DNA of 64,000 nucleotides from Proteiniphilum propionicum (GTDB lineage: Bacteria; Bacteroidota; Bacteroidia; Bacteroidales; Dysgonomonadaceae). Shown here piece after piece: positions 48,572 through 64,000 of the stretch; position 1 is the stretch's first letter; each line of letters opens with the position of its first letter. Below the pieces are notes generated by a model, which saw only the letters and a list, made by a program, of their open reading frames with translations, had not been told where the DNA came from and ran no database searches. The stretch is from assembly GCF_022267555.1 (NCBI RefSeq), contig NZ_CP073586.1:496001-560000 (forward strand). Reading direction: 5' to 3'. A program made the translations under genes and the position numbers.

Positions 48572-49993
48572 ATGCAATTTACACCTGAAAAATATAGAAT
48601 TCCCGATGTTCCCATGCAGCCGTTTATCGATACGGATGAAATTTGGGAGTATCTGAATAGTGCAGTGCCAACTCCTGAGAAGGTAAGAGAGATAATTGAC
48701 AAATCGCTTTCCAAAAAAAGATTAAACCTGGAGGAGACGGCAACGCTAATCAATGCATCGGACCAAGAATCAATTCAACTAATCAAAGAGGGTGCCAGAG
48801 AACTGAAAAAGAGGATTTACGGCAACAGGATCGTACTTTTTGCCCCACTTTATGTAGGCAACAAGTGTTCCAACAACTGCACTTATTGCGGATTCAGGGC
48901 TTCAAACACTGAGCAGGTGCGTAAAACCCTTACCCATGAAGAGCTAATGAAGGAGATTGAAGCATTGGAGGATAGCGGCCAGAAGAGGTTGATACTGGTG
49001 TATGGAGAACATGCGCAGTACAGCCCTGAATTTATTGCCGACACCGTAAGAACAGCATACAGTGTGAAGAAAGGGAACGGGGAGATAAGAAGAGTAAACA
49101 TTAATGCTGCTCCGTTAGACATAGAAGGGTTCCGTATTGTGAAAGAAGCGGGAATAGGGACTTTCCAGGTATTTCAGGAAACCTATCATAGAGAAGCTTA
49201 CAAGACCTATCACCTGCGTGGGAAAAAAGCTAATTTTGATTACCGCCTTACATCTCTCGACAGGGCACAGGAAGCCGGGCTCGATGATGTGGGCATAGGA
49301 GCTCTGATAGGACTTTACGACTGGCGCTTTGAGGTGATGGGTCTGGTGCGACACACCAACCACCTTGAGGCTTGTTACAACGTGGGGCCGCATACCATAT
49401 CGTTCCCGAGAATAAAAGATGCTTCGATGCTGCAGATGGGCAACCGCTATTTTGCCTCAGACGAAGATTTCGCCAGGTTAGTAGCTATCCTTCGCCTTGC
49501 CGTACCATATACCGGCATGATACTCACGGCACGTGAGCCGGCAGGGTTGCGTAACGAACTTATACAATACGGGGTGTCGCAGATAGATGGTGGAACAAAG
49601 ATAGAGCTTGGCGGTTATTTGACTAAGGAGAAGGATCACGACCTTAACAGGGGACAGTTCCGTATCAACGACGACCGCTCACTAAACGAGATCATCGACG
49701 AACTTCTGCACCAGGAGATGCTGCCATCGTTCTGCACTGCCTGTTACCGGCTTGGAAGAACTGGCGAGCACTTTATGGAGTTTTCAGTACCGGGATTCAT
49801 CAAACGGTTCTGTACTCCCAATGCTATTCTCACACTGGCTGAGTACCTTGTTGATTACGCGCCGGAGGAGACTTCTGAAAAGGGCTGGGAAGTGATTGAG
49901 AAGAATATGGGCAGCCTGAATGAAAAGGTGCAGGCAGAGGTGCGGGAAAGGATTGCAAAAATTAAAGAAGGGGAACGGGATTTGTATTTTTAA
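48572..49993 (+). CDS. hydG: [FeFe]-hydrogenase H-cluster radical SAM maturase HydG
   Basis: Cleaves tyrosine to supply CO and CN- ligands as an Fe(CO)2(CN) synthon for the H-cluster. 473 residues. The radical SAM cluster site is C99-x3-C103-x2-C106 (CSNNCTYC); the C-terminal auxiliary cluster region has FCTACYRLGRTGEHFM and a later Cys in FCTPN, the CX2CX22C pattern that sets HydG apart from ThiH. It begins the hydG-hydF-hydE cluster, which serves both hydrogenase catalytic subunits encoded on the opposite strand to the right. Confidence 0.97.
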   Translation: MQFTPEKYRIPDVPMQPFIDTDEIWEYLNSAVPTPEKVREIIDKSLSKKRLNLEETATLINASDQESIQLIKEGARELKKRIYGNRIVLFAPLYVGNKCSNNCTYCGFRASNTEQVRKTLTHEELMKEIEALEDSGQKRLILVYGEHAQYSPEFIADTVRTAYSVKKGNGEIRRVNINAAPLDIEGFRIVKEAGIGTFQVFQETYHREAYKTYHLRGKKANFDYRLTSLDRAQEAGLDDVGIGALIGLYDWRFEVMGLVRHTNHLEACYNVGPHTISFPRIKDASMLQMGNRYFASDEDFARLVAILRLAVPYTGMILTAREPAGLRNELIQYGVSQIDGGTKIELGGYLTKEKDHDLNRGQFRINDDRSLNEIIDELLHQEMLPSFCTACYRLGRTGEHFMEFSVPGFIKRFCTPNAILTLAEYLVDYAPEETSEKGWEVIEKNMGSLNEKVQAEVRERIAKIKEGERDLYF

Positions 49994-50173: not shown

Positions 50174-51370
50174 ATGAATAACCTCCATATTGGCATATTC
50201 GGACGAAGAAATACAGGAAAAAGTTCGCTGATAAATATGATCACCGGACAGGATATTTCTATTGTATCAAGTTTCCCGGGTACAACAACAGATCCGGTGA
50301 AAAAATCGGTGGAAATCCTGGATATTGGCCCTGCAATTCTGATAGACACCGCCGGAATAGATGACTTAGGGGAGATAGGATCAAAAAAGATACGGAAATC
50401 GCAGGAAGTTATACGAAGAGTTGATTGTGCTATTCTTCTTATTGCCGGTAATCAGTTTGGCGATTATGAAGTGCGGCTGATTGAACAGTTTAAAAGATAT
50501 GATGTCCCTTACCTCATTGCCCACAACAAAAGCGATATAGACAAAATAGCCGCTATCACCAAGACAGCCATTAAACAGTACTCCAAAGCAGAAATTATCG
50601 ACTTCAGCACTATCAACCCGGCAGATAAGAACAGACTCGTTTCCGCACTGAAAAGGATAGTACCTGAAATTGCCTTTCAGAAAAATTCGCTAATCGGCGA
50701 CCTGGTACAACCAAAGGATGTGGTTTTGCTGATAACCCCCATTGACAGGGAAGCACCGGAAGGACGGATAATACTCCCGCAGAATCAAACCATCCGCGAC
50801 GCACTTGATAACCGGTGTATCACAGTTGTATTGAAAGAGACCGAGCTCTCCGACTTTCTTAAAATTGGCATCACCCCTGCTTTGGCAATTACCGACAGTT
50901 CGGTGTTCGGTATTGTAGCAGAAATACTTCCGGAAAATATTCCATTGACCAGCTTCAGCATCCTTTTTTCCCGCCTTAAGGGTAACTTTGATGCATTCAT
51001 CAAAGGGACGCCACACATCTCTAAGCTTGAAGAAGGAAACTCCGTCCTTATTCTGGAGAGTTGTACACACCAGACCAGCTGCGACGACATAGGACGTGTA
51101 AAAATACCTGGTATGCTGCAGCAGTTCACCGGGAAAAAGCTTAATTTTACAGTCGTTTCAGGCCTCTCGGAGGTTCCACGAAAGGTAAAAGACTTTTCAC
51201 TTGTAATACAATGCGGCGGCTGTATGATTACACGAAAGCAGTTGCATAATCGGCTGAAACCATTTATTGAAGCAGGTATACCTGTTACAAACTATGGAAT
51301 GACACTGGCTTATCTGAATGGCATTTTTAAAAGAGCGACGGTAGTTTTCGACAAAATAACGGCCGGCTGA
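50174..51370 (+). CDS. hydF: [FeFe]-hydrogenase maturation GTPase HydF
   Basis: Scaffold that builds the 2Fe subcluster and delivers it to apo-HydA. 398 residues. The GTPase domain has Walker A GRRNTGKSS (10-18), G3 DTAGIDD and G4 NKSD. The C-terminal cluster-binding domain has Cys297-x-His299 and, 46 residues later, Gln346-Cys347-x2-Cys350. The usual motif is C-x-H-x(46-53)-H-C-x2-C, so the second His is replaced by Gln here; the three Cys are intact. A 180-nt gap precedes it, open in the HydF frame for 50 codons. hydE follows 13 nt later. Confidence 0.95.
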   Translation: MNNLHIGIFGRRNTGKSSLINMITGQDISIVSSFPGTTTDPVKKSVEILDIGPAILIDTAGIDDLGEIGSKKIRKSQEVIRRVDCAILLIAGNQFGDYEVRLIEQFKRYDVPYLIAHNKSDIDKIAAITKTAIKQYSKAEIIDFSTINPADKNRLVSALKRIVPEIAFQKNSLIGDLVQPKDVVLLITPIDREAPEGRIILPQNQTIRDALDNRCITVVLKETELSDFLKIGITPALAITDSSVFGIVAEILPENIPLTSFSILFSRLKGNFDAFIKGTPHISKLEEGNSVLILESCTHQTSCDDIGRVKIPGMLQQFTGKKLNFTVVSGLSEVPRKVKDFSLVIQCGGCMITRKQLHNRLKPFIEAGIPVTNYGMTLAYLNGIFKRATVVFDKITAG

Positions 51371-51383: not shown

Positions 51384-52457
51384 ATGTTTGACATATTAAA
51401 AAAAAGTATCCTGTCGAAAGACGATATCGTAACACTTCTCTCCCTGCAGGATGAAGAGAAGCAGCAGCTGTTCAGCTATTCGGCTAAAATAAAACTGCAA
51501 AATGTAGGGAACAAGGTTTTTTTACGCGGATTGATAGAGCTCTCCAATATTTGCGAAAAGGATTGTTACTATTGTGGCATCAGACGGTCTAACAGCAATA
51601 CGCACCGTTATATTCTCAGCCACGATGAAGTGATGAAGGCAGTTAAGAATGCCTATGAAAAAGGGTACGGTTCCGTGGCGATACAGTCAGGAGAAACATC
51701 TTCTAAAGCGTTTGTCAATAAAATTGACAAGATAGTGTCAGAGTCCAAAAGTGTAACCAACGGTGAGATAGGTATCACCCTTTCGTGTGGAGAACAATCA
51801 GAAGAGACCTACCGCCGCTGGTTCGAAAGTGGTGCCGACCGCTATCTGCTCCGGATTGAAGCATCCTCGGAAGAGCTTTACGGGAGATTACACCCCAACG
51901 ATGAGATTCACAGTTACGGTAAAAGGATAAATGCACTGGAAGCACTGCGTAAGACTGGCTACCAGGTGGGCACAGGCGTTATGATAGGGCTGCCGTTTCA
52001 GACCGGAGAGCACCTGGCAAACGATCTGCTGTTCATGAAACAACACGATATAGATATGTGCGGCATGGGCCCTTATATTGAACACACCAATACTCCGCTG
52101 TACCAGTACAGGGCACAGCTTCCTCCGCTTGCCGAGAGGCTTGCACTGAGCCTTAAAATGGTATCATTGCTTCGCATACTGATGCCTGACATTAACATTG
52201 CTGCCACCACCGCACTGCAGGCTATTGAAAAGGGCGGACGCGAACAGGCTATCAGAGTGGGTGCCAACGTATTGATGCCTAACATTACTCCAAGACAGTA
52301 CCGTAACGACTACTTCCTGTATGAGAACAAGCCCCTCTCTGCCAACAGCGACGAAGACGAGCTTTTTTTCCTGGAGCAACGCCTGCAGGCGACAGGACAT
52401 GAGATAGGGTACTTTCTCCAGGGCAACTCTCTGCATTATAAGGGCCCGCCTCGATAG
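51384..52457 (+). CDS. hydE: [FeFe]-hydrogenase H-cluster radical SAM maturase HydE
   Basis: Radical SAM enzyme acting on the HydG product on the way to the bridging dithiomethylamine 2Fe cluster. 357 residues, full length. Cluster ligands C57-x3-C61-x2-C64 (CEKDCYYC); the SAM-binding GGE-like element appears as QSGETS, and TIM-barrel motifs GTGVMIGLPFQT and MCGMGPYIEHTNTPL follow. The third maturase, 13 nt after hydF. No terminator was seen in the 270 nt after it. Confidence 0.95.
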   Translation: MFDILKKSILSKDDIVTLLSLQDEEKQQLFSYSAKIKLQNVGNKVFLRGLIELSNICEKDCYYCGIRRSNSNTHRYILSHDEVMKAVKNAYEKGYGSVAIQSGETSSKAFVNKIDKIVSESKSVTNGEIGITLSCGEQSEETYRRWFESGADRYLLRIEASSEELYGRLHPNDEIHSYGKRINALEALRKTGYQVGTGVMIGLPFQTGEHLANDLLFMKQHDIDMCGMGPYIEHTNTPLYQYRAQLPPLAERLALSLKMVSLLRILMPDINIAATTALQAIEKGGREQAIRVGANVLMPNITPRQYRNDYFLYENKPLSANSDEDELFFLEQRLQATGHEIGYFLQGNSLHYKGPPR

Positions 52458-52697
52458 ATACAACCCCGCGCGGTATCACTGTTATTAATACTCTCCTTTG
52501 ATAGCCCTAATACCTCAGGGAGATACTTTCCAGAGCCTGATGATTGAAGTAATATATGCGCTACATTCACATATTTATGTGTTTTAGCTTCTGAGACTTT
52601 CTTACTTCCGAACCCCGTGTTCTGACTTAATGATGTAACAGCAATAAATTAATAGCTACTTTTTACCGTAATATAACCAATTTGTAATATATTTGTG

Positions 52698-52705
52698 TAA
52701 TTTTG
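52698..52705 (+). promoter_or_regulatory. Possible -7 element for methionine gamma-lyase
   Basis: TAATTTTG fits TAnnTTTG 22 nt before the start codon; an overlapping candidate TATATTTG lies at 52688-52695. The -33 element is unclear. Confidence 0.4.
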
Positions 52706-52727
52706 ATTATCTAAATACTTTTCGATT

Positions 52728-53927
52728 ATGCACGACTACCCAATTAACCAAGCCGGGTTCGCCACCAAAGCCATACACGGAGGCCGTCAGAAAAATCAAT
52801 TCGGTTCCCTTTGCGATCCCATTTATCAAACATCGGCATTTACTTTTGAAACAGCAGAACAAGGAGGACGTCGTTTTACACTGGAAGAAGAAGGCTATAT
52901 TTACAGTCGTTTAGGTAATCCTACCTGTACAGAGGCGGAAGAAAAAGTCCGGTTACTGGAAGGCGGTGAAGCATGTGTTTCTGCCGCTTCGGGGATGGGT
53001 GCTATCACATCGGCCATTTGGGCGTGTGTTGAACAGGGCGATCATATTATCGCCTCAAAAACGCTTTATGGATGCACTTTCGCCTATCTTAACCATGGAG
53101 TCAGCAGATACGGAATTGATGTATCGTTTGTGGATATTCGTGATCCGGGGAACATTGAATCGGCCATGCGTCCCAATACCAGGCTGGTTTATCTGGAAAC
53201 GCCGGCAAATCCTACACTTTACATAGCAGATTTATCGTCAATTGCAGAAATAGTCCATCGGAAACCCGACTGTATTTTTATGGTCGATAACACTTTTTCC
53301 ACTCCCTATATCACACGTCCTATAGAAAGGGGTGCTGATGTAGTTATTCATTCGGCAACAAAATACCTTAACGGACACGGCGATGTTATAGCAGGATTTG
53401 TTGTGGGAAAGAAAGAATATATTGACAGAGTGCGGTATGTAGGTATTAAGGACATGACAGGAGCCAGCCTGAGCCCTTTCGAAGCTTTTCTGATTGCACG
53501 CGGGCTCAAAACTCTGGAAATAAGAATGGAAAAACACTGCAGTAACGCACAAAAAGTGGCCGAGTTTCTAGAAAAGCACGCTTCTGTTGAAACTGTCTTG
53601 TTTCCCGGATTGGCATCGTTTCCTCAGTTTGCATTGGCAAAAAAACAAATGTTGCTGCCGGGGGCTATCATCTCTTTTGAAGTAAAAGGAGGGGTAGAGG
53701 CAGGAAAAAAACTTCTCAACAACCTGCAGCTTTTGTCTATTTCGGTAAGCTTGGGGGATGCCGAAACCCTTATTCAGCATCCCGCCAGCATGACCCACTC
53801 CTCCTATTCACCCAAAGAACGGTTTGCCGGCAACATAAGCGACGGGCTTATCCGCCTGTCTGTAGGATTGGAGAATTCAGAAGATATCATTGCCGACCTT
53901 GAACAGGGATTGAATAAATTAAAGTAG
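52728..53927 (+). CDS. megL: Methionine gamma-lyase
   Basis: PLP enzyme splitting methionine to methanethiol, 2-oxobutyrate and ammonia. 399 residues. The PLP Lys is K212 in SATKYLNGHGD, the phosphate-binding region is YSRLGNPT, and Cys116 in YGCTFAYLNHG lies at the diagnostic active-site position of methionine gamma-lyases (Cys116 in the Pseudomonas enzyme), which separates it from cystathionine lyases. 2-oxobutyrate can be oxidised by a ferredoxin-dependent oxidoreductase, giving reduced ferredoxin for the bifurcating hydrogenase next door; this link is inference. Its stop is 1 nt from the hydC stop on the opposite strand. Confidence 0.9.
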   Translation: MHDYPINQAGFATKAIHGGRQKNQFGSLCDPIYQTSAFTFETAEQGGRRFTLEEEGYIYSRLGNPTCTEAEEKVRLLEGGEACVSAASGMGAITSAIWACVEQGDHIIASKTLYGCTFAYLNHGVSRYGIDVSFVDIRDPGNIESAMRPNTRLVYLETPANPTLYIADLSSIAEIVHRKPDCIFMVDNTFSTPYITRPIERGADVVIHSATKYLNGHGDVIAGFVVGKKEYIDRVRYVGIKDMTGASLSPFEAFLIARGLKTLEIRMEKHCSNAQKVAEFLEKHASVETVLFPGLASFPQFALAKKQMLLPGAIISFEVKGGVEAGKKLLNNLQLLSISVSLGDAETLIQHPASMTHSSYSPKERFAGNISDGLIRLSVGLENSEDIIADLEQGLNKLK

Positions 53928-53928
53928 A

Positions 53929-54480
53929 CTATTTTCTGTACTCATTCAAAATATTTTTTACGCCATCTGGAGATACACGCCCATACACTTTCTCTCCCAC
54001 AAGCACTACAGGAGCCAGTCCGCACGCCCCCACGCATCGCAGGCAGTTGATGGAGAACTTGCCATCGGGAGTAGTCTCCCCTACCTTAATGTTCAGTACT
54101 TTCTTGAACTCCTCCAGTACCATCTCGGCACCTCTTACATAACATGCTGTCCCGGTACAGACCGATATTGGGTGTTCACCTTTAGGGATCATCGTGAAAA
54201 ACGAATAAAAAGTCACCACACCATAAACATGAGCAACGGAGAGATGAAGGTTATGGGCAATCACATCCTGCACCTCTGCCGGCAGATAGCCGAACTCATG
54301 CTGTGTTTCATGCAGCACGTTTATAAGCTCTCCGGGATCGTTGCCGTATGAGTCACATATATTATTAATCTTCTCTATTTTCTCTCTGGAAAGGTTCACC
54401 TTTACCTCTATGCCGTCGGTACCTGCCACTTTTTCCATACAAGCGAATACTTCGGGCGATATACTAAATTTTTTATTCAT
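53929..54480 (-). CDS. hydC: Bifurcating [FeFe] hydrogenase subunit HydC (NuoE-like)
   Basis: 183 residues. A helical N-terminal part is followed by a thioredoxin-like [2Fe-2S] domain with C108, C113, C149 and C153 (CTGTAC and CVGAC), as in NuoE. It forms the small subunit of the HydABC complex and passes electrons between HydB flavin and the complex. Last gene of the hydrogenase operon, 15 nt after hydA. No terminator is visible before the convergent methionine gamma-lyase gene. Confidence 0.94.
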   Translation of the reverse strand: MNKKFSISPEVFACMEKVAGTDGIEVKVNLSREKIEKINNICDSYGNDPGELINVLHETQHEFGYLPAEVQDVIAHNLHLSVAHVYGVVTFYSFFTMIPKGEHPISVCTGTACYVRGAEMVLEEFKKVLNIKVGETTPDGKFSINCLRCVGACGLAPVVLVGEKVYGRVSPDGVKNILNEYRK

Positions 54481-54495
54481 ATCTTCTCTGCTTTT

Positions 54496-56280
54496 TTACT
54501 TACTATTCGGACCATTTAAATGAATTGAAACCTCATTGCTTTTAGGAAAATACTCAGTATGCAGCAAACTGTGGGCTTTATGGCTCCCCGGTTCGCCCAG
54601 GAATTCACGGTAGAGCCTTATAATTGAAGGGTTCTCGTGCGACTTGCGGATGGTTTTGCGCTCATCCTCGGTGTAGATAGCGGCAGCACGTTTGGCAAGG
54701 ATTCTGCTGTTACCATGATGATAAGGCTGTCCACCTCCGCCAATGCAGCCTCCGGGGCATGCCATAATCTCAATAGCATGATATTGCGAAGTTCCAGCTC
54801 TCACTTCATCCAGCAATTTGCGAGCGTTCCCCAACCCATGAGCTATTCCTATATTTAGCTTTAACCCGTCGAAATCTATGGTGGCAGACCGGATACCCTC
54901 TACTCCGCGCAGCTCGTGAAATTCAACCTCTTCAAGAGTTTTACCAGTATGCAGCTCGTATGCAGTACGACAAGCAGCTTCAATTACTCCACCGGTGTTA
55001 CCGAAAATTACAGCTGCTCCTGACGACTCACCCAGCGGGTCATCGAAATCTTCATCGGGAAGATTCAGAAAATCGATGTTAGCCTGTTTTATAAATGCTG
55101 CCAGCTCTCTAGTAGAGATGGAAAAATCGACATCGGCATTACCGGCTACACTGAACTCATCGCGCTGACATTCATACTTCTTTGCCAGGCATGGCATAAT
55201 GGATACCACTACCAGATCTTTCCTGTTGACTCCGATCTTGTCTGCAAACCATGATTTTGCTATCGCTCCGAACATCTGCTGTGGCGACTTTGAAGTAGAT
55301 GGCACATCCAAAAGATCAGAAAAGTTGTGTTCAAAGAAGTTAACCCATCCAGGGCAGCACGACGTGAGTATAGGCAGACGGACAGAAGTGTCTCCGGCCA
55401 GATGGCCCTGAATGCGCTGCAGCAACTCCGTCCCCTCCTCCATAATGGTAAGGTCGGCACTAAAGTCGGTATCAAAAACATAGTCGAATCCCAGCTCCCG
55501 CAACGCCGCCACCATCCGACCAGTAACGAGCGTTCCCGCTTCCAGTCCGAACTCTTCTCCTAAAGCGGCGCGAACAGCTGGTGCTGTCTGTACTACAACA
55601 GTTTTGGCGGGATCATTCAAAGCTCTTATAATGTCGTTGGTGTGATCCACTTCGGTAAGAGCGCCTGTCGGGCATACCGATACACACTGTCCGCAATAGG
55701 TACATGGAGAGTCTTCAAGGTTCATCTCGAAAGCGGGTGCCACAACCGACATAAAGCCGCGGTTTACTGCTGCAAGAGCACCCACTGTCTGCACCTCGTT
55801 GCACATCATTTCACAGCGTCGGCACATAATACATTTATCTACATCACGTATTATTGAGGGTGAAGTATCCTTCCTGTAATGCGACTGCTCTCCTTCATAC
55901 GGGAGGCTGCGTATTCCAAACTGTGTTGCAAGGCTCTGCAGTTCGCAATGGCCCGATTTAGCACATACCAGGCAGTCGAACGGGTGGTCTGAGATAATGA
56001 GTTTCAATACTGTTGTCCTGGCGTTAAGCACCCTGATACTGTGTGTATTTATCACCATGCCATCTTGAGCTTCGGTCATACACGATGGAGCAAGATTCCT
56101 GCGCCCCTCCACCTCCACAACACAAATACGGCATCCTCCGGGTTTATTTTCAATATCCAGGTCGCACAACTCAAAATGGCACAGTGTCGGAATTTCCACT
56201 CCCACCTGCTGTGCAGCCTTTAAGATGGTAGTCCCTTTTTCTACCCTTACTTTTTTCTTGTCTATAGTGAGTTCTATCAT
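54496..56280 (-). CDS. hydA: Bifurcating [FeFe] hydrogenase catalytic subunit HydA
   Basis: 594 residues from ATG 56280 (the frame opens at a TTG at 56304). In order: plant-type [2Fe-2S] domain (CHFELC, CRIC), His-ligated [4Fe-4S] segment (HPFDCLVCAKSGHC), two [4Fe-4S] ferredoxin motifs (CIMCRRCEMMC, CTYCGQCVSVC), then the H-cluster domain with TSCCPGW (C308/C309), MPCLAKKYE (C364) and MACPGGCIGGGGQP (C508/C512). All ligands and the proton-relay Cys are intact, so it should be active. The small-subunit-like helix follows; the extra C-terminal [2Fe-2S] domain of Thermotoga HydA is absent. Group A, trimeric type by context. Confidence 0.97.
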   Translation of the reverse strand: MIELTIDKKKVRVEKGTTILKAAQQVGVEIPTLCHFELCDLDIENKPGGCRICVVEVEGRRNLAPSCMTEAQDGMVINTHSIRVLNARTTVLKLIISDHPFDCLVCAKSGHCELQSLATQFGIRSLPYEGEQSHYRKDTSPSIIRDVDKCIMCRRCEMMCNEVQTVGALAAVNRGFMSVVAPAFEMNLEDSPCTYCGQCVSVCPTGALTEVDHTNDIIRALNDPAKTVVVQTAPAVRAALGEEFGLEAGTLVTGRMVAALRELGFDYVFDTDFSADLTIMEEGTELLQRIQGHLAGDTSVRLPILTSCCPGWVNFFEHNFSDLLDVPSTSKSPQQMFGAIAKSWFADKIGVNRKDLVVVSIMPCLAKKYECQRDEFSVAGNADVDFSISTRELAAFIKQANIDFLNLPDEDFDDPLGESSGAAVIFGNTGGVIEAACRTAYELHTGKTLEEVEFHELRGVEGIRSATIDFDGLKLNIGIAHGLGNARKLLDEVRAGTSQYHAIEIMACPGGCIGGGGQPYHHGNSRILAKRAAAIYTEDERKTIRKSHENPSIIRLYREFLGEPGSHKAHSLLHTEYFPKSNEVSIHLNGPNSK

Positions 56281-56364
56281 TATTTTTTTAGGTTTACGGA
56301 GCAATTGCCAGGACTATTTTAATATCTCCCTCAACTATTGCTCGATGTTATTGATAATTCCTGT

Positions 56365-58188
56365 TTAATTGGCCATTACACTAACCTTATAATCACTTTT
56401 CAGGCTGATTGCTTCAAACTGACATTTCTCCATGCAGGCGCCGCATTTAATACATATCTCCTGATTGATAACATGTGGCTCTTTCTTTTCTCCACTGATT
56501 GCATGTGTAGGACAAACCCGCTTACATGCCATACATCCGATACAATCTTCTTCAGAAATCACATAGTATAGGAGGTTACGACACTGGCCGGAACGGCATT
56601 TTTTATCATGCACATGCTCCTTGTACTCATCCATGAAGTTGTTGAGTGTTGAGAGTACCGGGTTGGGAGCAGTTTGTCCTAATCCGCACAACGAAGTATC
56701 TTTAATGACACTGCTTAAGTTTCTCAGCTTTTCTATATCTTCCTGTTTGCCTTTGCCATCGGTGATTCTTTCGAGGGCTTCATAAAGCCGTTTGTTGCCG
56801 ATGCGGCAGGGTGCACATTTTCCGCAGGACTCTTCCACAATAAAACCCAGGTAGAACTTGGCTACCGATACCATGCAGTCATCCTCATCAAGCACAATCA
56901 TGCCTCCTGAACCCATCATTGAGCCTGCAGCAGTAAGACTTTCATAATCTATCGGCGTATCAAGGTGCTTCTCTGTAAGGCATCCTCCTGAAGGCCCTCC
57001 TGTTTGCACCGCCTTGAATTTCTTGCCGTTTTTTATTCCGCCGCCAATCTCGTAAATAATCTCTCTAAGCGTAATACCCATTGGCACCTCAATCAATCCC
57101 ACATTATTTATCTTTCCTGCAAGTGCAAACACTTTAGTCCCCTTCGACTTTTCGGTTCCGATTGAAGAGAACCATTCGGCCCCTCTTTGAATAATCACAG
57201 GTATATTGGCAAGAGTCTCCACATTGTTAACGTTCGTAGGTTTTCCCATATATCCGCTCTGTGCCGGAAATGGAGGTTTGTTGGACGGTTCACCCCTTTT
57301 CCCTTCCATAGAGTTTATGAGTGCTGTCTCTTCACCGCAGACGAAAGCACCTGCACCATATTTAAGGCTTATATCGAAGTTGAAGCCGGCATCGAAAATA
57401 TTATCACCCAGCAATCCGTACTCCCTTGCCTGCGCTATTGCAATCTTCAGTCGTTTTATAGCCAGCGGATATTCTGCCCTTATATATATCAATCCTTTGG
57501 TTGCGCCTATGCAATAGCCGCAAATAATCATAGCTTCAAGTACAGAGTGGGGGTCACCCTCAAGGATGGAGCGATCCATGAAAGCCCCCGGATCGCCTTC
57601 ATCGGCATTACAGACCACATACTTCTGATCGGCTTCGTTCCTGCTAGCAATCTCCCATTTCAGGCCTGTAGGGAATCCCGCACCGCCACGGCCACGCAAT
57701 CCCGATTTCTTGATCACATCAATGGCCTCCTGCGGAGAGTAATCTGTAAGAACTTTACCTAATGCCTGGTATGCATCTCGGGCAATCGATTCATCAATAT
57801 TCTCGGGATCGATGGTTCCACAGTTACGAAGCGCTATACGCAACTGCTTCTTATAGAAGCCCATATGTTTTGAATCGAGTATATGTTCCTCGGTCTCGGG
57901 ATCTGTATAAAGCAGACGATTTACCTTTCGCCCCTTGATAACATGTTCATCAATAATCTCTTTTGCGTCAGAAGGCCTTACCTGGGTGTAGAACGTGTTA
58001 TCTGGCAAGACTTTCACTATTGGCCCCTTTTCGCAAAAACCAAAACAGCCGGTACGGATAATCTGTACATCCTCTTTCAATTCTTTTCTCTCAACCTCAT
58101 CGCGTAACATTTCGTAAACCAGGCTGCTTTCCGATGAATTGCATCCGGTCCCTGCGCATACGAGAAGGTGCATTTTGTATTGACTCAT
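56365..58188 (-). CDS. hydB: Bifurcating [FeFe] hydrogenase subunit HydB (NuoF-like)
   Basis: 607 residues. N-terminal thioredoxin-like [2Fe-2S] domain (C11, C16, C48, C52), NuoF core with the FMN motif GRGGAGFPTGLKWE and NADH-binding GAGAFVCGEETALI, a [4Fe-4S] site ESCGKCAPCRIG, and a C-terminal 2[4Fe-4S] ferredoxin domain (CIGCMACKRVCP, CIKCGACMEKC). It holds the FMN where NADH and ferredoxin electrons merge during confurcation to H2. It is 60 nt upstream of hydA and 13 nt after the small [2Fe-2S] gene. Confidence 0.96.
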   Translation of the reverse strand: MSQYKMHLLVCAGTGCNSSESSLVYEMLRDEVERKELKEDVQIIRTGCFGFCEKGPIVKVLPDNTFYTQVRPSDAKEIIDEHVIKGRKVNRLLYTDPETEEHILDSKHMGFYKKQLRIALRNCGTIDPENIDESIARDAYQALGKVLTDYSPQEAIDVIKKSGLRGRGGAGFPTGLKWEIASRNEADQKYVVCNADEGDPGAFMDRSILEGDPHSVLEAMIICGYCIGATKGLIYIRAEYPLAIKRLKIAIAQAREYGLLGDNIFDAGFNFDISLKYGAGAFVCGEETALINSMEGKRGEPSNKPPFPAQSGYMGKPTNVNNVETLANIPVIIQRGAEWFSSIGTEKSKGTKVFALAGKINNVGLIEVPMGITLREIIYEIGGGIKNGKKFKAVQTGGPSGGCLTEKHLDTPIDYESLTAAGSMMGSGGMIVLDEDDCMVSVAKFYLGFIVEESCGKCAPCRIGNKRLYEALERITDGKGKQEDIEKLRNLSSVIKDTSLCGLGQTAPNPVLSTLNNFMDEYKEHVHDKKCRSGQCRNLLYYVISEEDCIGCMACKRVCPTHAISGEKKEPHVINQEICIKCGACMEKCQFEAISLKSDYKVSVMAN

Positions 58189-58201
58189 ATTTAGTTGTAT
58201 T

Positions 58202-58600
58202 TTAGATAGTATTATAATTTTGTGGTATTATACCGTCGACAAGTTCGCCATCTTTGATATAGCGTTCTATTATCTCGTCGGCTTTTTTAGGATTTACATA
58301 TCCGAAAACCATCGGTTCTTTTCCCGGCATGGTTATTTCCACGGTAGGTTCGGCAAAGCAGTAACCCATGCATCCTGTCTGTGTTACTACCGCATCTATT
58401 CTTCTCTTATCGAGCTCTTCCACGAAGTACTCCATCACCTCTTTAGCTCCAGAGGCTATTCCGCATGTGGCCATAGCCACCTTCACCTGAACAATTGACT
58501 CGGGGTTCTCAGCCCTGTTCCTTAAGTCGAGGATGGATTTTACCTCTTCCTGTTTCTTTTTCAGGTCGGCAAGTGTTTTTATTCCATTCATATTATTCAT
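58202..58600 (-). CDS. Small (2Fe-2S) thioredoxin-like ferredoxin, hydrogenase accessory
   Basis: 132 residues. A helical N-terminus with heptad-like charge pattern is followed by a thioredoxin-like ferredoxin fold: ATCGIASGAKEV with C46, then QTGCMGYC with C77 and C81. Only three Cys are in the usual ligand region, one fewer than in HydC. Proteins of this type accompany HydABC operons; they may shuttle electrons to or from the complex or to the neighbouring sensor proteins. It is 13 nt before hydB and 48 nt after the GHKL ATPase gene. Confidence 0.85.
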   Translation of the reverse strand: MNNMNGIKTLADLKKKQEEVKSILDLRNRAENPESIVQVKVAMATCGIASGAKEVMEYFVEELDKRRIDAVVTQTGCMGYCFAEPTVEITMPGKEPMVFGYVNPKKADEIIERYIKDGELVDGIIPQNYNTI

Positions 58601-58648
58601 ATATTAATAGTTATAAGTTATTTATTGTAGCTGTTTCCACCCCCACTG

Positions 58649-59215
58649 CTACCTGCATAGAAAGCTATTCAAAGGCCTCATTTTGAATATCTCTTTCAGG
58701 TTTTCGTTTATAAACTCTTTTACTGCCGGCAACATCTGCGGGTATTGCAAATCTATCCCCTGCAACTTCATTTCATTGGAATCAATTTCAAATAGCTTCC
58801 CATCTACCTTATAGGCAAACCTAAAATGAATCCCCGGATTAGCTTTCAACAACAAAGCCAGATATCCCGCAATATCTCCCAGCGGTAGACAGTCGGGGTT
58901 ATCAGTACGGTAAACCGCTTCAACTGTTGTCCCTTTACCCTCTTCAGATAGTACCTCCAGCGAACCTCCGGCCTGCTCGCAAGTCATTTTTAAAAAAGGG
59001 ACGCCTAACCCAACTCTTCTGGTGGTTCGAGTAGAATAAAAAGGGTCGGCCAGTTTTTTCACTGCCTCTCCGCTCATTCCTATTCCATCATCTTCTACCC
59101 TGAATATTAGCCTGTTTCCTATACTATCCTCATTAAAAGATATACAGATTTTCTTCGCTTCCGCCCGAATGGAATTCTGTACTATATCCATCATATGCAT
59201 CGCCATATCAACCAT
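58649..59215 (-). CDS. GHKL ATPase (histidine-kinase-like ATP-binding protein) in the hydrogenase operon
   Basis: 188 residues from ATG 59215, whose start overlaps the PHP gene end by 8 nt (translational coupling). The Bergerat ATP-binding fold shows an N box (MMDIVQNSIRAEAKK), G1 box DDGIGM, and a G2-like TTRRVGLGVPF. No dimerisation/phosphoacceptor His domain or transmembrane helix precedes it, so it is not a full sensor kinase: it may be an anti-sigma-type serine kinase or signal ATPase. The last ~60 residues form an extra small domain of unknown fold (FRFAYKVDGKLFEIDSNEMK). Function unproven. Confidence 0.82.
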   Translation of the reverse strand: MVDMAMHMMDIVQNSIRAEAKKICISFNEDSIGNRLIFRVEDDGIGMSGEAVKKLADPFYSTRTTRRVGLGVPFLKMTCEQAGGSLEVLSEEGKGTTVEAVYRTDNPDCLPLGDIAGYLALLLKANPGIHFRFAYKVDGKLFEIDSNEMKLQGIDLQYPQMLPAVKEFINENLKEIFKMRPLNSFLCR

Positions 59216-59960
59216 TAGTGCAATATATTTCAGATCCCTTATTCCGGTTTTCAGCAAAAAATGTTCTAAAACATTCCCAATCTGGCCTCTCCATATTGAA
59301 GCGATTATACACTGAAGCAATATCTTCCGGATAATGGGCATCGGAGTTTTGGAGGAACCGTTTACCTTTAAGACCCTGGTGTTTTTTTACAAACTCTTCC
59401 GGCGTTGTAGCTTTTGACACCTCAAGCGCATCATACTCAAGATCGAAAGGTATAAAACCCAGCTGACTGAACAGGCTGTTTTTCGGCCTGTCGATATGAG
59501 CCGGCACGAAAATTCCGTCCAGCCTGTGTACCTCTCCTGCCACGCCCTCTATCTCATCATCAATACTCATAAATAAAGAGCGCTCTTCTTCATACACTAT
59601 CAGATCATTCTCATCTACAGCTACCTGGTATCCCATGCGGCGAGGATCGTTTTTCACATCGGTCATTCTCTCTTCCAGATAGTTCTGAAACTCCTCCAAT
59701 GCCTGCAAATGAGGGAAATAACATAGGCAGTGGACCTCTTCCCTTGTGTTCACCTCACACCCGGGTATAACATAAACGCCTTCCCTGCTGCCAATTTCCA
59801 CGCAAACACGTACATTCCGGGTGGTGTTGTGGTCGGTGATTGCTATCATATGCAGCCCCTTCGCCTTCGCCGTACGGATAATATTCCCCGGGCTCATATC
59901 AAGGCTGCCGCACGGTGACAAACAGGTGTGAATGTGCAAATCGGCATTGAAACAGTTCAT
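59208..59960 (-). CDS. PHP-domain metal-dependent phosphoesterase-like protein
   Basis: 250 residues. The N-terminus carries ADLHIHTCLSPCGSL (two metal-binding His), then ITDHNT, a Glu in PGCEVNTREE with HCLC after it, PAHIDRP and NSDAH near 210: the complete set of metal ligands of the PHP family. Substrate unknown; related stand-alone proteins hydrolyse phosphoesters or cyclic/oligo-nucleotides. It is unusual beside hydrogenase genes unless it belongs to the signalling set here. It lies 65 nt after the DRTGG gene and is coupled to the following ATPase gene. Confidence 0.88.
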   Translation of the reverse strand: MNCFNADLHIHTCLSPCGSLDMSPGNIIRTAKAKGLHMIAITDHNTTRNVRVCVEIGSREGVYVIPGCEVNTREEVHCLCYFPHLQALEEFQNYLEERMTDVKNDPRRMGYQVAVDENDLIVYEEERSLFMSIDDEIEGVAGEVHRLDGIFVPAHIDRPKNSLFSQLGFIPFDLEYDALEVSKATTPEEFVKKHQGLKGKRFLQNSDAHYPEDIASVYNRFNMERPDWECFRTFFAENRNKGSEIYCTNG

Positions 59961-60025
59961 TTAACTCCTCTCTTTTTCGCTTTATTCAACTTTGTTGTCA
60001 GTTGCGCGTCGCTCATGCCACGTGC

Positions 60026-60373
60026 TCAATCAACCTCCTTCAACCACTCATACAGTATTCCGGCAGTTTCAAAAGCAGGCATCCCGGATGTTAGTATAAC
60101 TACCTCCTCAGCTTCGGCATGATCCAATACCTCCTGAGCAACAATCCGCTCATTGACCACTATTACTGCACTTAACTCTTTAAGCGAAGCAACCGCCACA
60201 ATATTTTTATGTACCTGCGATGTAACCCAAAGCATTTTAGGTTGTGCTTTACCCATCACATCACTCAGCAAATCAGACACATAAGCCGACTGCACCGCTC
60301 TCTCTAACAGAGAGTTACCCGTAAGACATTCAAAATTCAGCTCTTCTGTAAGCTGTTTAAGATTCTTTTCCAT
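60026..60373 (-). CDS. DRTGG-domain protein (downstream copy)
   Basis: 115 residues, essentially one DRTGG-like domain: GNSLLERAVQSAYVSDLLSDVMG, then a buried strand-turn pattern (LWVTSQVHKNIVAVASLKELSAVIVVNER) and a closing EVVILTSGMPAFETAGILYEW. DRTGG domains occur in Pta and near CBS domains and are suspected to bind ligands. Its start overlaps the HydS-like gene by 17 nt, so stoichiometric production and perhaps a complex are likely. Function unknown. A distant paralog is at 62188-62532. Confidence 0.82.
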   Translation of the reverse strand: MEKNLKQLTEELNFECLTGNSLLERAVQSAYVSDLLSDVMGKAQPKMLWVTSQVHKNIVAVASLKELSAVIVVNERIVAQEVLDHAEAEEVVILTSGMPAFETAGILYEWLKEVD

Positions 60374-61733
60374 GTGAATCTCTGTATTTATTGAGCCTGT
60401 TCCTGCCCCATATCTTTTCTATAACCACAAAGGCCTGATCAGGGCTCAGTTTGTAATTTTTCTCCATAACACGCTGCACAAAAACACAATGAGATATGCT
60501 CGCTTTGCCTCTTACAATATCTTCGGCCAGATTCCTGCAGCCCGGTGCACCGCAGGCACCGCAATCGAAACCGGGAAAGTAGGTCATAAGCCGCTCAATT
60601 CGCTGCAGCTTAATCAACGCCTTCTCCATATCTTCATCCAACAGCAGTCCATCGCGTGGATAAACCGGATCGACACTGGAAAGTGCATGAAGCACCTCCT
60701 TATACTCCATAAGTGGATTTCTCACAACTCCTTTGTCGGCCTTTTTCAGCTTTTGCAATCTTTTATGCCTATGTTCCAATCGTTCCACTGTAAGGAATCT
60801 GTTACCGGGACAAAGGATGCCCCCGGCACACCCCTGGTCACAGGCACGCATCTCTAGAAAATCTATTTCGGCGATATGTCCCGATTCCAGCTTTTCAAGA
60901 AACTCAATCACATTATCTATCCCGTCAATAGCCAAGCTTCTACCAGGAAAATATTTCTTTTCGGTCCCCGACAACGACCAGTTGACCGAATCGGGGCTCA
61001 TATTTGCAAATTTTTTGTGTAACCCGGGATTTTTCTTTCCATGCAGTATTTTTGAAACCTTGTTATAGATCTCGGTCATATTTATTGTAGCATCGATAGG
61101 CGATTGCAGCTCACCTACGGGTGCACGGGCTGCAACAATTTTCGCAGCGCACGGGGTAATATAATATATGAACAATTTCCCCGGGTCCATACCCTCCCTC
61201 TCCTTCAATTTTCTGAGATAGAGAGCAACTACATCGTGAGGTGCTTTCAGCAACAAAATCAGCTCTGTAAGCGAAGGGTATTGAACCTGAATAAGGCGGA
61301 CTATTGCAGGACAAAACGAACTGATAAGCGGATGAGGCAGTTCCTCTTTCGCAACAGATTCATAGGCTTCTTTCATGAAATCCACTGCCTGCTCCACCTC
61401 ATATACCTCATCAAAGCCCAACTGTTTTACCGCATCAAGTACCTGTGTGGCCGAATATTCTGAAGGAAATTGGCCAATAAAGACAGAGGGCACCAGTGCA
61501 ATCCGGTATCCGTCCCTCTCTATGGAAATGAAACCGTCATCCTTAGCGTAAATGGCCCGTTGAGGACAAACACGGTAACATTCGCCGCAGTCGATACATC
61601 TTTCCGGTTGAATGCGCGCATACCCCTCCACAATACGGATAGCCTGTGTAGAACAAACACGCATACAATGCGAGCAACCGATACATTTATTTGTATCAAT
61701 CTGAATTGAATGTGTATAGTTCCTGTCTTTCAT
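60357..61733 (-). CDS. HydS-like [FeFe] hydrogenase-related protein (putative H2/redox sensor)
   Basis: 458 residues: two [4Fe-4S] ferredoxin motifs (C17/20/23/27 and C46/49/52/56), then an H-cluster-type domain with Cys141 (SSFCPA), Cys195 (TPCAAK) and Cys298/Cys302 (RACDQGC), and a C-terminal FeS4 domain with C391, C394, C399 and C416. All four H-cluster Cys positions are kept, but the proton-relay Cys is Phe140, the Met of MPC is Thr193, and the GGGQP loop is lost (AGGILCPGN). That pattern matches the putative sensory (group C/D) hydrogenases rather than turnover enzymes. No PAS domain is attached. It is flanked by DRTGG and ATPase genes, so these may be signal partners. Confidence 0.85.
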   Translation of the reverse strand: MKDRNYTHSIQIDTNKCIGCSHCMRVCSTQAIRIVEGYARIQPERCIDCGECYRVCPQRAIYAKDDGFISIERDGYRIALVPSVFIGQFPSEYSATQVLDAVKQLGFDEVYEVEQAVDFMKEAYESVAKEELPHPLISSFCPAIVRLIQVQYPSLTELILLLKAPHDVVALYLRKLKEREGMDPGKLFIYYITPCAAKIVAARAPVGELQSPIDATINMTEIYNKVSKILHGKKNPGLHKKFANMSPDSVNWSLSGTEKKYFPGRSLAIDGIDNVIEFLEKLESGHIAEIDFLEMRACDQGCAGGILCPGNRFLTVERLEHRHKRLQKLKKADKGVVRNPLMEYKEVLHALSSVDPVYPRDGLLLDEDMEKALIKLQRIERLMTYFPGFDCGACGAPGCRNLAEDIVRGKASISHCVFVQRVMEKNYKLSPDQAFVVIEKIWGRNRLNKYRDSHGKES

Positions 61734-61774
61734 TTTGTACCTAAAAGTATCCGGATACTATTCCAATAAGCCGG

Positions 61775-62191
61775 CTAGCCGTTGAAAAAAACTTTTATCT
61801 CAAGCCTTGTTCCTGTCCCGGGTGTAGATGACAAATACATCTCATCACAGTTTCTTTTGATATTAGGCAGTCCCATCCCGGCTCCAAATCCCATTTGACG
61901 AACCTCATCAGTAGCAGTAGAAAAGCCCTCTTCCATCGCTTTGTCAATATCTTCAATTCCAGGCCCCTCATCCTCAACAACCACATCGATTCCCTCCGGT
62001 GTGATATCCACACTCATTATCCCTTTCCAAGCGTGTGCCACAACGTTTACTTCGGCTTCGTAGAGCGCCACGGCTATCCTTCGCACAATAATAGGCGATA
62101 TATTGAACTGTTTAAGAGTTTTTTTCACCTCAGAGCTTGCCCGTCCTGCCGCGCTGAAATTTCCCCCCTCTATGTTGTAATGCATCTTCAT
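61775..62191 (-). CDS. RsbW/SpoIIAB-like ATP-binding protein
   Basis: 138 residues with the anti-sigma-factor serine kinase fold: N box VALYEAEVNVVAHAW, G1 box VEDEGPGIED, and G2 MGFGAGMGLPNIKR. No transmembrane or sensor region. Such proteins bind sigma factors or phosphorylate STAS antagonists; no sigma factor or STAS gene is nearby, so the partner may be the adjacent DRTGG protein, with whose gene it overlaps by 4 nt (ATGA). Different in length and sequence from the other ATPase at 58649-59215. Confidence 0.85.
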   Translation of the reverse strand: MKMHYNIEGGNFSAAGRASSEVKKTLKQFNISPIIVRRIAVALYEAEVNVVAHAWKGIMSVDITPEGIDVVVEDEGPGIEDIDKAMEEGFSTATDEVRQMGFGAGMGLPNIKRNCDEMYLSSTPGTGTRLEIKVFFNG

Positions 62192-62532
62192 AGGGAAACC
62201 GGTTTCAACCCATTTTGATAGAGTTTCCCTGAAATCTCAAAAACTGTTGAATCTGTTGCAACAATTGATATATTATGTTCCTTTGCCAAAGCCAACATTT
62301 CATCCGTAACCTGTTTGCCCCTGCCGAAAATTATGCAGGAAATATTGATGATCTCTGCAGTACGGATAGCTTGCACTGTGCACAAACCCGTAATAAGGAT
62401 GGTGTTCTCCATCTGAAATCGCAATACATCACTCATCAAATCAGAAGCAAAAGCATTTGTGTAATTGTGAAGAGTGTTACAATCGAGTTGTATTGTTCCG
62501 TCGATAATCTCGTTTACCCTTTGTAAATTCAT
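62188..62532 (-). CDS. DRTGG-domain protein (operon-leading copy)
   Basis: 114 residues, one DRTGG-like domain: IDGTIQLDCNTLHNYTNAFASDLMSDVLRF, ILITGLCTVQAIRTAEIINISCIIFGRG and a closing ISIVATDSTVFEISGKLY. It leads the ten-gene hydrogenase operon and overlaps the RsbW-like gene by 4 nt. Resembles the second DRTGG gene in length and layout, but little identity is visible. Likely cytoplasmic; ligand and function unknown. Confidence 0.82.
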   Translation of the reverse strand: MNLQRVNEIIDGTIQLDCNTLHNYTNAFASDLMSDVLRFQMENTILITGLCTVQAIRTAEIINISCIIFGRGKQVTDEMLALAKEHNISIVATDSTVFEISGKLYQNGLKPVSL

Positions 62533-63116
62533 TTTTTATTTCAAACAATGTACGAAAAATAGCTTTCTTTGTGTTTTTATGATGTGTTACTTTGCAACAA
62601 TTTGTATCATATTGTGGTTGTTTTATCAAATATGTCTTGACAAAGGTAACATTGCAGAGCTAAAAACACCTTTTCAACAATCTGAATATTAGGTAATTAA
62701 AATGTTTTTACTACTTTATACTACAAAGTAAACCATTTTTTTCAAATTAAAGAAATTTTTCGGTAATTAAATTCAATAATTTATCAAATTTTCCGTGATG
62801 CCGATATAAGCAAACAACCAGGCAGCTCTCTTGAAAATCAGTCTAAACAGACAATCACACAACCATTTAATAAATGCTTAACTAATCTTTCATACTCCTC
62901 CTGAGTCCTGCATAAACCACTCTGTTATTAAATGCTTAAGTCTGCTAACAAAGCCAAAATAAATTAAAAAATAATTATTTGAGTCTGCTCCAAAAAATCG
63001 GGAATATCAAAAATGGTTTTTTATAATGTATTGAATATTAATATCTGTTTTATCCGATTGTAATGAAAGAGACTTTCAGGAGGGGACTCATGCTGATAAT
63101 CGGTATGTAAAACCGC
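62533..63116. other. Non-coding AT-rich region between the two hydrogenase loci
   Basis: No gene in 584 bp. It contains the promoter candidate at 62641-62648 and a short inverted repeat TGAAAG-AGA-CTTTCA at 63064-63078, just downstream of the second hydrogenase gene; that stem is too short to call a terminator. The rest is strongly AT-rich. Confidence 0.6.
62641..62648 (-). promoter_or_regulatory. -7 promoter element for the hydrogenase/signalling operon
   Basis: Reads TACCTTTG on the minus strand, matching TAnnTTTG, 108 nt before the first gene of the operon. It is the best candidate for driving the ten genes down to hydC. The -33 element is not clear. Confidence 0.45.
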
Positions 63117-64000
63117 TTAAACCGACCTTTTCACATAGTGCGTATGCAACAGATGATGCGATCTATCACTCATGGGGCACATGAGAAAATCCTCATAAAT
63201 CCTTACAATTTCGGGGTTTTCATGAGATTTACGTATCGTTTTGTGTTCATCTTCAAAATAGATTGATTCAGCACGCTTTTCCCGTATTTCGGCATTGGTC
63301 GGTATAGGCTGGCCTCCTCCGCCCAGGCAGCCTCCCGGGCAGGTCATTACCTCGATAAATGCGTAAGGTGATGTGCCATTTTTTATCTGATCGAGCAACA
63401 AAGCAGCATTTTTCAGCGTGTTGCCAACAGCAACTTTCAAAGTTGTTCCGTTCATATCTATATCGGCTTCTCTTATCCCCTGTAATCCCCGGACCGACTT
63501 GAAATCTAAACTCTTCAGGTTTCTCCCGGTATAAAGCTCATAAGCAGTCCTTAACGCTGCTTCCATAACACCACCCGTGGATCCGAACAACACTGCCGCA
63601 CCTGTCGATTCGCCCAGTGGGCTGTCGAACTCTTCATCCGGAAGCTGCGTGAATTCAATACCCGATTCACGAAACATACGAGCCAGTTCCCTTGTGGTTA
63701 GAGAATAATCTACATCAAAGAATCGTTCCTCCTCCGTAAGGCTCATTCTCTCTTTCCAGTATTGGAATGCACCATCCATTTCGGGCCTTCGGGCCTCATA
63801 TTTCTTGGCGGTGCAGGGCATAACAGAAACTACAACTATATCTCTCGGGTCGGTACCTGTTTTTTCGGCGTAATAGGTTTTGGCTACCGCACCAAACATC
63901 TGTTGTGGAGATTTACATGTAGACAAATGTTCCAGCAGCTGTGGATAAAAATGTTCAATAAACTTTATCCATCCCGGTGAACAGGATGTTATCATTGGCA
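63117..64000 (-). CDS. Second [FeFe] hydrogenase catalytic subunit, C-terminal part (5' truncated by window edge)
   Basis: The frame is open to the right edge (codon Pro before the internal Met at 63995), so the N-terminal FeS domains lie outside. Present are the L1 motif as TSCSPGW, L2 MPCTAKKYE and L3 MTCPGGCLGGGGQP, then a small-subunit-like tail (HKTIRKSHENPEIVRIYEDFL). In L1 the second of the two adjacent Cys, normally an H-cluster ligand, is Ser; HydA at 54496-56280 keeps both. Between L1 and L2 it resembles that HydA (CKSPQQMFGAVAKTYYAEK). It may be a paralog with a different partner or role. Subunit context is cut off. Confidence 0.93.
   Translation of the reverse strand, partial: PMITSCSPGWIKFIEHFYPQLLEHLSTCKSPQQMFGAVAKTYYAEKTGTDPRDIVVVSVMPCTAKKYEARRPEMDGAFQYWKERMSLTEEERFFDVDYSLTTRELARMFRESGIEFTQLPDEEFDSPLGESTGAAVLFGSTGGVMEAALRTAYELYTGRNLKSLDFKSVRGLQGIREADIDMNGTTLKVAVGNTLKNAALLLDQIKNGTSPYAFIEVMTCPGGCLGGGGQPIPTNAEIREKRAESIYFEDEHKTIRKSHENPEIVRIYEDFLMCPMSDRSHHLLHTHYVKRSV

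Follow-up and report, generated by a model that had tools for sequence, protein, structure and literature searches.

The window analyzed here is a stretch of 64,000 nucleotides from the bacterium Proteiniphilum propionicum (contig NZ_CP073586.1, positions 496,001 to 560,000). It carries the gene of HydS, a [FeFe] hydrogenase homologue of group D (M2e), together with five other genes. DRTGG1, HATP1, HydS, DRTGG2, PHP, and HATP2 are transcribed in this order, followed by TrxFd, HydB, HydA, and HydC (Table 1). Their open reading frames (ORFs) overlap by 4 nucleotides between DRTGG1 and HATP1 and by 17 between HydS and DRTGG2. HydS is probably the input of a fixed signaling cassette, whose first receiver would be HATP1 and which would tune the hydrogenase HydABC; this reading draws on the conservation of the gene set and on loci where another sensor appears to take the place of HydS.

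Table 1. Genes of the cassette and of its surroundings in the window (aa, amino acids).
Gene	Description	Position	Strand	Length	Remarks
DRTGG1	Stand-alone DRTGG-type protein	62188..62532	minus	114 aa	Below Pfam DRTGG cut-off; clear fold match
HATP1	SpoIIAB/RsbW-like GHKL ATPase, predicted serine kinase	61775..62191	minus	138 aa	
HydS	Group D (M2e) [FeFe] hydrogenase homologue	60357..61733	minus	458 aa	ATG start; from domains, residues, tree, and model
DRTGG2	Second DRTGG-type protein	60026..60373	minus	115 aa	Below Pfam DRTGG cut-off
PHP	PHP-domain phosphoesterase	59208..59960	minus	250 aa	
HATP2	Stand-alone histidine-kinase-type ATPase domain	58649..59215	minus		ORF opens at 59341; start (about 59215) judged from length of relatives
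TrxFd	Thioredoxin-like 2Fe-2S protein of the hydABC set	58202..58600	minus		
HydB	NuoF-like subunit (FMN/FeS) of the downstream NADH-dependent hydrogenase	56365..58188	minus		
HydA	Group A6 catalytic [FeFe] hydrogenase	54496..56304	minus		NF040763, 898.9 bits, over cut-off
HydC	NuoE-like 2Fe-2S subunit	53929..54480	minus		
HydA, C-terminal part	Second hydrogenase set, upstream	63117..63998	minus		Runs off the window
HydG	H-cluster maturase	48572..49993	plus		TIGR03955, over cut-off
HydF	H-cluster maturation GTPase	50174..51370	plus		TIGR03918, over cut-off
HydE	H-cluster maturase	51384..52457	plus		TIGR03956, over cut-off

Architecture of HydS

HydS begins with two N-terminal 4Fe-4S motifs (C17/20/23/27 and C46/49/52/56 by reading of the sequence, with Fer4 found by Pfam), followed by the H-domain (Fe_hyd_lg_C, residues 90–305, E 2.8e-27) and by a C-terminal FeS4 domain (PF04060, residues 387–418), the cysteines of which are spaced as C391-x2-C394-x4-C399-x16-C416. 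Residues F140, C141, T193, P194, C195, K198, C298, and C302 were read directly, and CDQGCAGGILCPGN occupies the position of the CxxCxGGGQP loop. No PAS domain was found by Pfam at E ≤ 0.001. The residues and the Pfam matches thus agree with the original prediction, made from the letters of the window, which had listed the four H-cluster cysteines, F140, T193, K198, the FeS4 domain, the lack of PAS, and the replacement of the GGGQP loop. The possibility of a PAS or other output domain hidden at the C-terminus was rejected from Pfam and from the tail lengths: 42 residues follow the last cysteine in HydS and 19–58 in group D, versus 168–257 in group C.

This residue pattern is not due to chance, because the cysteines and the residues at positions 193 and 140 are conserved across 95 unique group D ORFs, each of at least 380 aa (a set that excludes HydS', a variant found later and described below). 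The four H-cluster cysteines (C141, C195, C298, and C302) and the four FeS4 cysteines are kept in all 95, and residue 193 is Thr in 93 of them and Ser in two. The AlphaFold model of HydS (52 sequences) has a mean predicted local distance difference test score of 90.5 and a predicted template modeling score of 0.89; when it was used for a structure search, all of the 50 listed PDB matches were solved [FeFe] hydrogenases.

Placement within the [FeFe] Hydrogenases

As far as its sequence tells, HydS is a group D (M2e) [FeFe] hydrogenase of the same kind as TamHydS from Thermoanaerobacter mathranii, every defining feature that was tested having been found in it. TamHydS was compared through the accessible portions of four papers (PMC8163306, PMC10407848, PMC11803613, and PMC13104023), and its likeness to HydS rests on shared features and on the residues and primer stretches quoted there. 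The accessible text of PMC8163306 characterizes M2e proteins by two N-terminal 4Fe-4S motifs, a C-terminal Cx2Cx4Cx16C motif, the absence of PAS, the loss of C299, the replacement of M353 by Ser or Thr, and a frequent location in an operon with a group A hydrogenase; that of PMC3561251 classes group D as sensory on account of the protein kinases and bifurcating hydrogenases nearby. In HydS the C299 position is occupied by F140 and the M353 position by T193, and the hydBAC genes of a bifurcating-type group A hydrogenase lie directly downstream of the cassette. TamHydS has in common with HydS the domain order without PAS, the four H-cluster cysteines, the Cx2Cx4Cx16C motif, the loss of C299, a hydroxyl residue at M353, the acid relay E252/E289/S249/D265, and a location beside a bifurcating group A hydrogenase and a histidine-kinase-like ATPase. 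It differs by A137 where HydS has F140, by S191 where HydS has T193, and by L291, at the M497 position, where HydS has R296. An AraC gene is reported to flank it (PMC8163306, in part).

The catalytic group A motifs TSCCP, MPC, and GGGQP read SSFCPA, TPC, and CAGGIL in HydS, which scores 100 bits against the NCBIfam group A model TIGR02512, below its cut-off of 405.95. The PAS domain that follows the FeS4 domain in group C is absent. Group C (M2f) sensors, such as TmHydS (compared from papers only), the own-genome protein at L132:8860-10608, and the Ruminococcus albus protein of locus L117, which we take to be the published RaHydS, share the 4Fe-4S motifs, the H-domain, and the FeS4 domain with HydS, and the proton-relay cysteine is likewise absent from 15 of 17 of them. 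They differ by a PAS domain (as in the own-genome copy) or a fused histidine kinase (L032), by a neighboring SpoIIE phosphatase (L117, L118, and L132), by L, I, or M at the E258 position in 17/17, and by their separate place in the tree.

A first tree of 55 sequences (23 of group D, 16 of group C, 12 of group A, two of group B, and two of the type beside the R. albus HydS) was drawn from 106 group D ORFs (95 unique), 17 group C ORFs, and 104 other hydrogenase ORFs; it omits the group C sequence L069, whose ORF runs to the end of its stretch. Group D forms one side of a branch with 100/100 support, apart from A, B, and C. The earlier assignment of HydS to the sensory-type [FeFe] hydrogenases, outside catalytic group A, is therefore upheld by phylogeny. 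A second tree of 49 rows includes HydS' and has six group D and four group C rows fewer than the first. In it, the three HydS' sequences group with D at 100/100, D without HydS' being supported at only 70/38. Support for group C is 83/61 in the first tree and 96/90 in the second, and TamHydS itself is in neither. As a protein, HydS is an ordinary member of group D and nothing new in kind. The original prediction had also held that, without PAS, the output of HydS must pass to separate proteins. This is probable, but it is not special to HydS, since the missing PAS domain is a published trait of the whole group (PMC8163306 and PMC3561251, in their accessible parts).

The H-Cluster Pocket and the Proton Relay

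The proton relay had been described as lost. This holds for the group A relay (C299 and others), which is gone, but not for the proton path E252-E289-S249-D265, proposed for TamHydS as exclusive to group D (PMC10407848, accessible part). By alignment, with a register set by the primers of that paper, which cover the surroundings of E252 and E289, these residues correspond to E258, E294, S255, and D270 of HydS. E258, E294, and D270 are present in all 95 group D homologues, and position 255 is Ser in 30, Thr in 62, and Pro in three. Because the published group D acid residues are conserved in the homologues, the relay of HydS is replaced rather than lost: the group A path is gone and the group D acid path is kept. 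The suggestion that the H-cluster binds H2 slowly is at odds with the partly accessible report on TamHydS, which describes a low turnover yet a raised H2 affinity (PMC8163306).

The C299 position (residue 140) is Phe in 72, Tyr in 22, and Ala in one of the 95 homologues. At the position of CpI M497 (L291 in TamHydS, R296 in HydS), Arg is found in 93, with one Lys and one Asp; the Ala and the Asp both come from L116, the sole Bacillota sequence of the set. Arg at the M497 position and Phe/Tyr at the C299 position, as read from these aligned sequences, are a new detail for group D.

Conservation of the Cassette

A contig scan gave at least 578 relatives, the best 80 of which, Bacteroidota by title, were examined. 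In these named loci, wherever the contig has room, DRTGG1 was found in 75/75, HATP1 in 78/78, DRTGG2 in 80/80, PHP in 80/80, and HATP2 in 77/77. HydB lies downstream in 70 of the 72 loci with room, L115 being counted, and nine contigs are too short. The two loci without an adjacent downstream HydB are L097, where hydG lies about 2 kb upstream of the cassette, and L115 of Parabacteroides distasonis, where a group A6 hydA is found about 59 kb away in the same record. The cassette also stands without adjacent hydABC in genome G159 (L141:4903-8657), the HydS of which is 85% identical to that of P. distasonis (L115:7209-10980). In the Bacillota locus L116 (S. variabile), the order is DRTGG1-HATP1-HydS-DRTGG2-PHP, with HydC, HATP2, HydB, and HydA divergent. 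By our own arithmetic on the part of Table 6 shown in PMC3561251, exactly four locus numbers separate each of six Bacillota M2e genes from a hydrogenase trimer.

HydS (>200 bits) was found in 27 of 61 related genomes, the own genome included, and HATP1 (E ≤ 1e-15) in the same 27; the DRTGG1 profile adds two genomes to these (G009 and G032, one match each). Given the kinship of the genomes and the linkage of the genes, this co-occurrence shows a shared fate, not contact; because of that kinship, no weight is placed on a Fisher test of the 27/34 co-occurrence. Within the genus, 17 of 37 genomes have no HydS match above 200 bits. Type 1 hydrogenase genes are present in all seven HydS-less congeners examined, with HydC, HydB, and HydA whole in five of them; in L129 and in the 4.2-kb contig L130, HydB is partial or broken and HydC was not seen. 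None of the cassette genes was seen in the hydrogenase stretch of these seven. No cassette protein is better conserved than HATP1: its median identity to the window is 58.4% over 59 loci, and that of the other five is 41–46%. Plasmid records of P. distasonis and S. variabile contain matches to HATP1, as do three Vibrio records, these at 38% over 77% of its length, and the search of viral contigs for group D gave only one match of about 50 residues.

The five constant neighbors are good candidates, on these grounds of gene context, for the signaling partners of HydS, and this is where the surroundings of HydS go beyond the literature found, which covers open-licence papers only. DRTGG2, whose gene overlaps that of HydS, had been proposed as the output: it is indeed a constant partner, as one of five, but the exchange of sensors described next favors HATP1 as the first receiver.

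A Proposed Exchange of the Sensor

In the class survey (197 genomes, the own one included), HATP1 was found in three genomes and HydS (E ≤ 1e-80) in two, with at most eight first-look candidates per genome scored for HydS in the rows shown. The phylum survey of 394 genomes gave seven HATP1 matches, the own genome and G159 among them. Genome G206 (L140) has DRTGG1, a 312-aa CBS-CBS-HATP1 fusion, DRTGG2, PHP, and HATP2. On one side of this set lie HydC-TrxFd-HydB and on the other a protein of 1102 aa, HydA/NuoG-like at its start and HdrA thereafter, which has no H-domain. CBS-CBS-HATP1 is also encoded in G457 (L152) and G292 (L153), and HydS was not found in those stretches, the rest of the genomes not having been searched. 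Two CBS domains are carried by HATP1, according to Pfam, in each of the three HydS-less loci. An HdrA-type subunit was confirmed for two of them, L140 and L152; in L153 the gene is cut off by the end of the contig. These fusions, at L140:8974-9909, L152:9640-10569, and L153:8725-9639, all lie beside HydB-type complexes.

Three further genomes, G564, G403, and G411, have the whole cassette with the HydS variant HydS' (L149:9897-11216, L150:7918-9249, and L151:8269-9582). In all three, the four H-cluster cysteines are kept and C20, E258, and D270 are missing. Beside HydS' lie HydC-TrxFd-HydB and a protein of 586–588 aa without an H-domain by Pfam; the one in L149, the only one of the three compared with HdrA, gave an HdrA match.

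Because the CBS pair is fused to HATP1 where HydS is missing, HATP1 is suggested to be the first receiver of the signal, and HydS would be a modular, exchangeable sensor. A broader view is possible, though we hold it tentatively: a constant cassette DRTGG1–SpoIIAB-like kinase–DRTGG2–PHP–HATPase may be dedicated to NADH-dependent flavin-iron-sulfur complexes, with an exchangeable input (HydS with HydABC, a HydS variant without the acid relay with HdrA-type complexes, or a CBS pair fused to the kinase) and a kinase substrate that is not a STAS protein, perhaps DRTGG.

HATP1 and the DRTGG Proteins

HATP1 aligns with SpoIIAB (PDB 1til, E 5.6e-12), the N-box Glu and Asn and the ATP-binding boxes matching. 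The N-box Glu is catalytic in SpoIIAB. E45, N49, D74, G76, G78, and GFGAGMGL are invariant in 14 aligned HATP1 rows. The GHKL domain sequence and the N-box residues are thus shared with the SpoIIAB/RsbW anti-sigma factor kinases; HATP1 differs from them by scores below the curated cut-offs and in that no STAS partner was found in its genome, where the one STAS domain is part of a sulfate permease. A STAS protein is the usual substrate of SpoIIAB. PF13581 matches two proteins of the window genome, HATP1 and one TPR histidine kinase. No phosphoacceptor domain was found in HATP2.

The substrate of HATP1 is a guess, because no free STAS protein was found, and for the same reason DRTGG1 and DRTGG2 may be put forward as candidate substrates. 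The model of DRTGG1 has the DRTGG fold, with a template modeling (TM) score of 0.84 to 2ioj (AF1212); together with the DRTGG domain of CBS-type pyrophosphatase (PDB 3l2b and 3l31), the TM scores by query length range from 0.76 to 0.84. Matches of the DRTGG profile to PDB "Pizza6" entries were rejected as chance, being summed over repeats. Unlike the DRTGG domain of CBS pyrophosphatase, the window cassette has two small stand-alone paralogues with an S-D-L-x-S-D-V stretch, and across 24 aligned rows from Bacteroidota, which cover both paralogues, every position of D-L-x-S-D-V except x is invariant. No paper pairing DRTGG with bifurcation was found in the open-licence full-text literature, and a single one there mentions DRTGG together with hydrogenase.

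Maturation Genes and Surroundings of the Cassette

The maturase genes of the window are listed in Table 1. Among 16 genomes surveyed, HydF is over cut-off in nine, and not in G159, G039, G564, G403, G411, G206, and G457. G039 has HydB, HydC, and a HydA with catalytic motifs, and its missing HydF is for this reason probably an assembly gap. The idea of taking a missing HydF as proof of a HydS without H-cluster is weakened by this genome. The HydS' genomes, without HydF over cut-off and without the acid relay, would fit a sensor without an H-cluster but do not prove one.

In the window genome (L131), a type 1 hydrogenase set is followed by the cassette and then by hydBAC. Two different group A HydA genes (63117-63998 and 54496-56304) flank the cassette, the upstream set being of the type kept by the HydS-less congeners. 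Between the upstream hydA and DRTGG1, 584 bases (62533-63116) hold no convincing gene and are a likely place for the cassette promoter. No RNA family reached the gathering threshold in 52000-64000. Fusions of HydS to a cassette protein were not found in the fusion check; the only fusion was that of group C HydS to a histidine kinase (L032/L134 and L033). At L032:1459-3444, a group C type HydS without a PAS match is directly fused to HisKA and HATPase domains.

The own genome also encodes a group C HydS with PAS (L132:8568-11777; C1, about 3620567-3623776), with a 2Fe-2S protein before it and, after it, a SpoIIE-family phosphatase, the only such match in the genome. Both sensors share one locus in L060, L064, L065, L070, L075, L079, L085, L088, and L092, where the gene of a group C HydS is found a short distance upstream of the group D cassette; in L060, a 397-aa ORF lies between the two.

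A Signaling Model and Its Alternatives

In the mechanism that we propose, HydS would receive an H-cluster through maturation; HydE, HydF, and HydG are encoded in the same window. H2, or an electron state set by H2, would shift its conformation, and this change would be passed to HATP1. As a serine kinase of the SpoIIAB/RsbW type, HATP1 would alter the phosphorylation or the binding of a small partner, most likely the DRTGG proteins, which carry the conserved S-D-L-x-S-D-V stretch. The signal may then be reset or relayed by PHP and HATP2, and the output would tune the neighboring NADH-dependent HydABC, in activity or in expression. Beside an HdrA-type complex, the HydS variant or the CBS pair fused to HATP1 would be the sensor instead.

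Several observations weigh against this model. Genes of an operon co-occur by joint inheritance, and linkage is no proof of contact. HydB, HydA, and HydC are better conserved (medians of 70–75%) than any cassette protein. HATP1 stays under the curated SpoIIAB and RsbW cut-offs (TIGR01925, 52.2 bits versus 135), and no stand-alone STAS protein was found in the genome, which has one PF01740 match inside a sulfate permease and no STAS_2 (PF13466). In the Bacillota DRTGG2 (L116), the conserved stretch reads G-D-L-L-S-W-A, so that only D-L-L-S is kept. Five of the seven genomes without HydF over cut-off hold HydS or HydS', and the C-terminal cluster of TamHydS is described as unresponsive to H2 in the accessible part of PMC13104023.

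HydS could also be a slow working hydrogenase that trades electrons with HydABC or ferredoxin; regulation of the complex by the DRTGG, HATPase, and PHP proteins would then be independent of HydS. TamHydS does catalyze H+/H2 conversion at a low rate (PMC8163306, in part), and the L140, L152, and L153 stretches, in which HydS is missing, retain the five other genes, beside complexes with an HdrA-type or HydA/NuoG-like subunit. However, HATP1 gained a CBS pair where HydS is missing, which fits a replacement of the input, HydS stands between HATP1 and DRTGG2 in the best 80 loci, and the locus already holds a catalytic group A hydrogenase, so that we regard this explanation as improbable. It is very unlikely, in turn, that some members of the HydS family lack the H-cluster and act as plain FeS redox sensors, in which case H2 sensing would be later or lineage-specific. 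The HydS' proteins of L149–L151 do lack C20, E258, and D270, no HydF over cut-off was found in the genomes that encode them (G564, G403, and G411), and G159 combines a normal HydS with the same absence; yet the four H-cluster cysteines stay in all three HydS', the window genome has HydE, HydF, and HydG, and G039 indicates that HydF can be missing through an assembly gap, HydF alone having been searched in those genomes, not HydE or HydG.

A different role of the partners is unlikely as well, though less so: HATP1 would be an anti-sigma factor or a two-component relay for transcription of the operon, and the DRTGG proteins would be adenine-nucleotide sensors that set a threshold, not kinase substrates. 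HATP1 is indeed closest to the anti-sigma F factor SpoIIAB, the DRTGG proteins have the fold of the regulatory domain of that name in CBS pyrophosphatase, and three loci encode HATP1 with a fused CBS pair. Against this, no sigma factor or DNA-binding gene is annotated in the P. distasonis cassette, the other loci and the genome not having been searched for one, and no further long ORF interrupts the cassette of the window. The reading of HydS as the input of a cassette received by HATP1 is the one we retain as probable.

Biological Meaning

The worth of the finding lies in a named, testable set of partners and in a natural exchange of sensors, not in the HydS protein itself. The candidate receiver HATP1 and the candidate substrates DRTGG1 and DRTGG2 are small, expressible, and testable with H2. 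In a genome that encodes both types of sensors, the kinase of the one and the phosphatase of the other could form one switch. If the model is true, SpoIIAB-like kinases would have a partner of a new kind in the DRTGG proteins, and the level of H2 would be linked to the control of electron-bifurcating-type complexes in fermenting bacteria.

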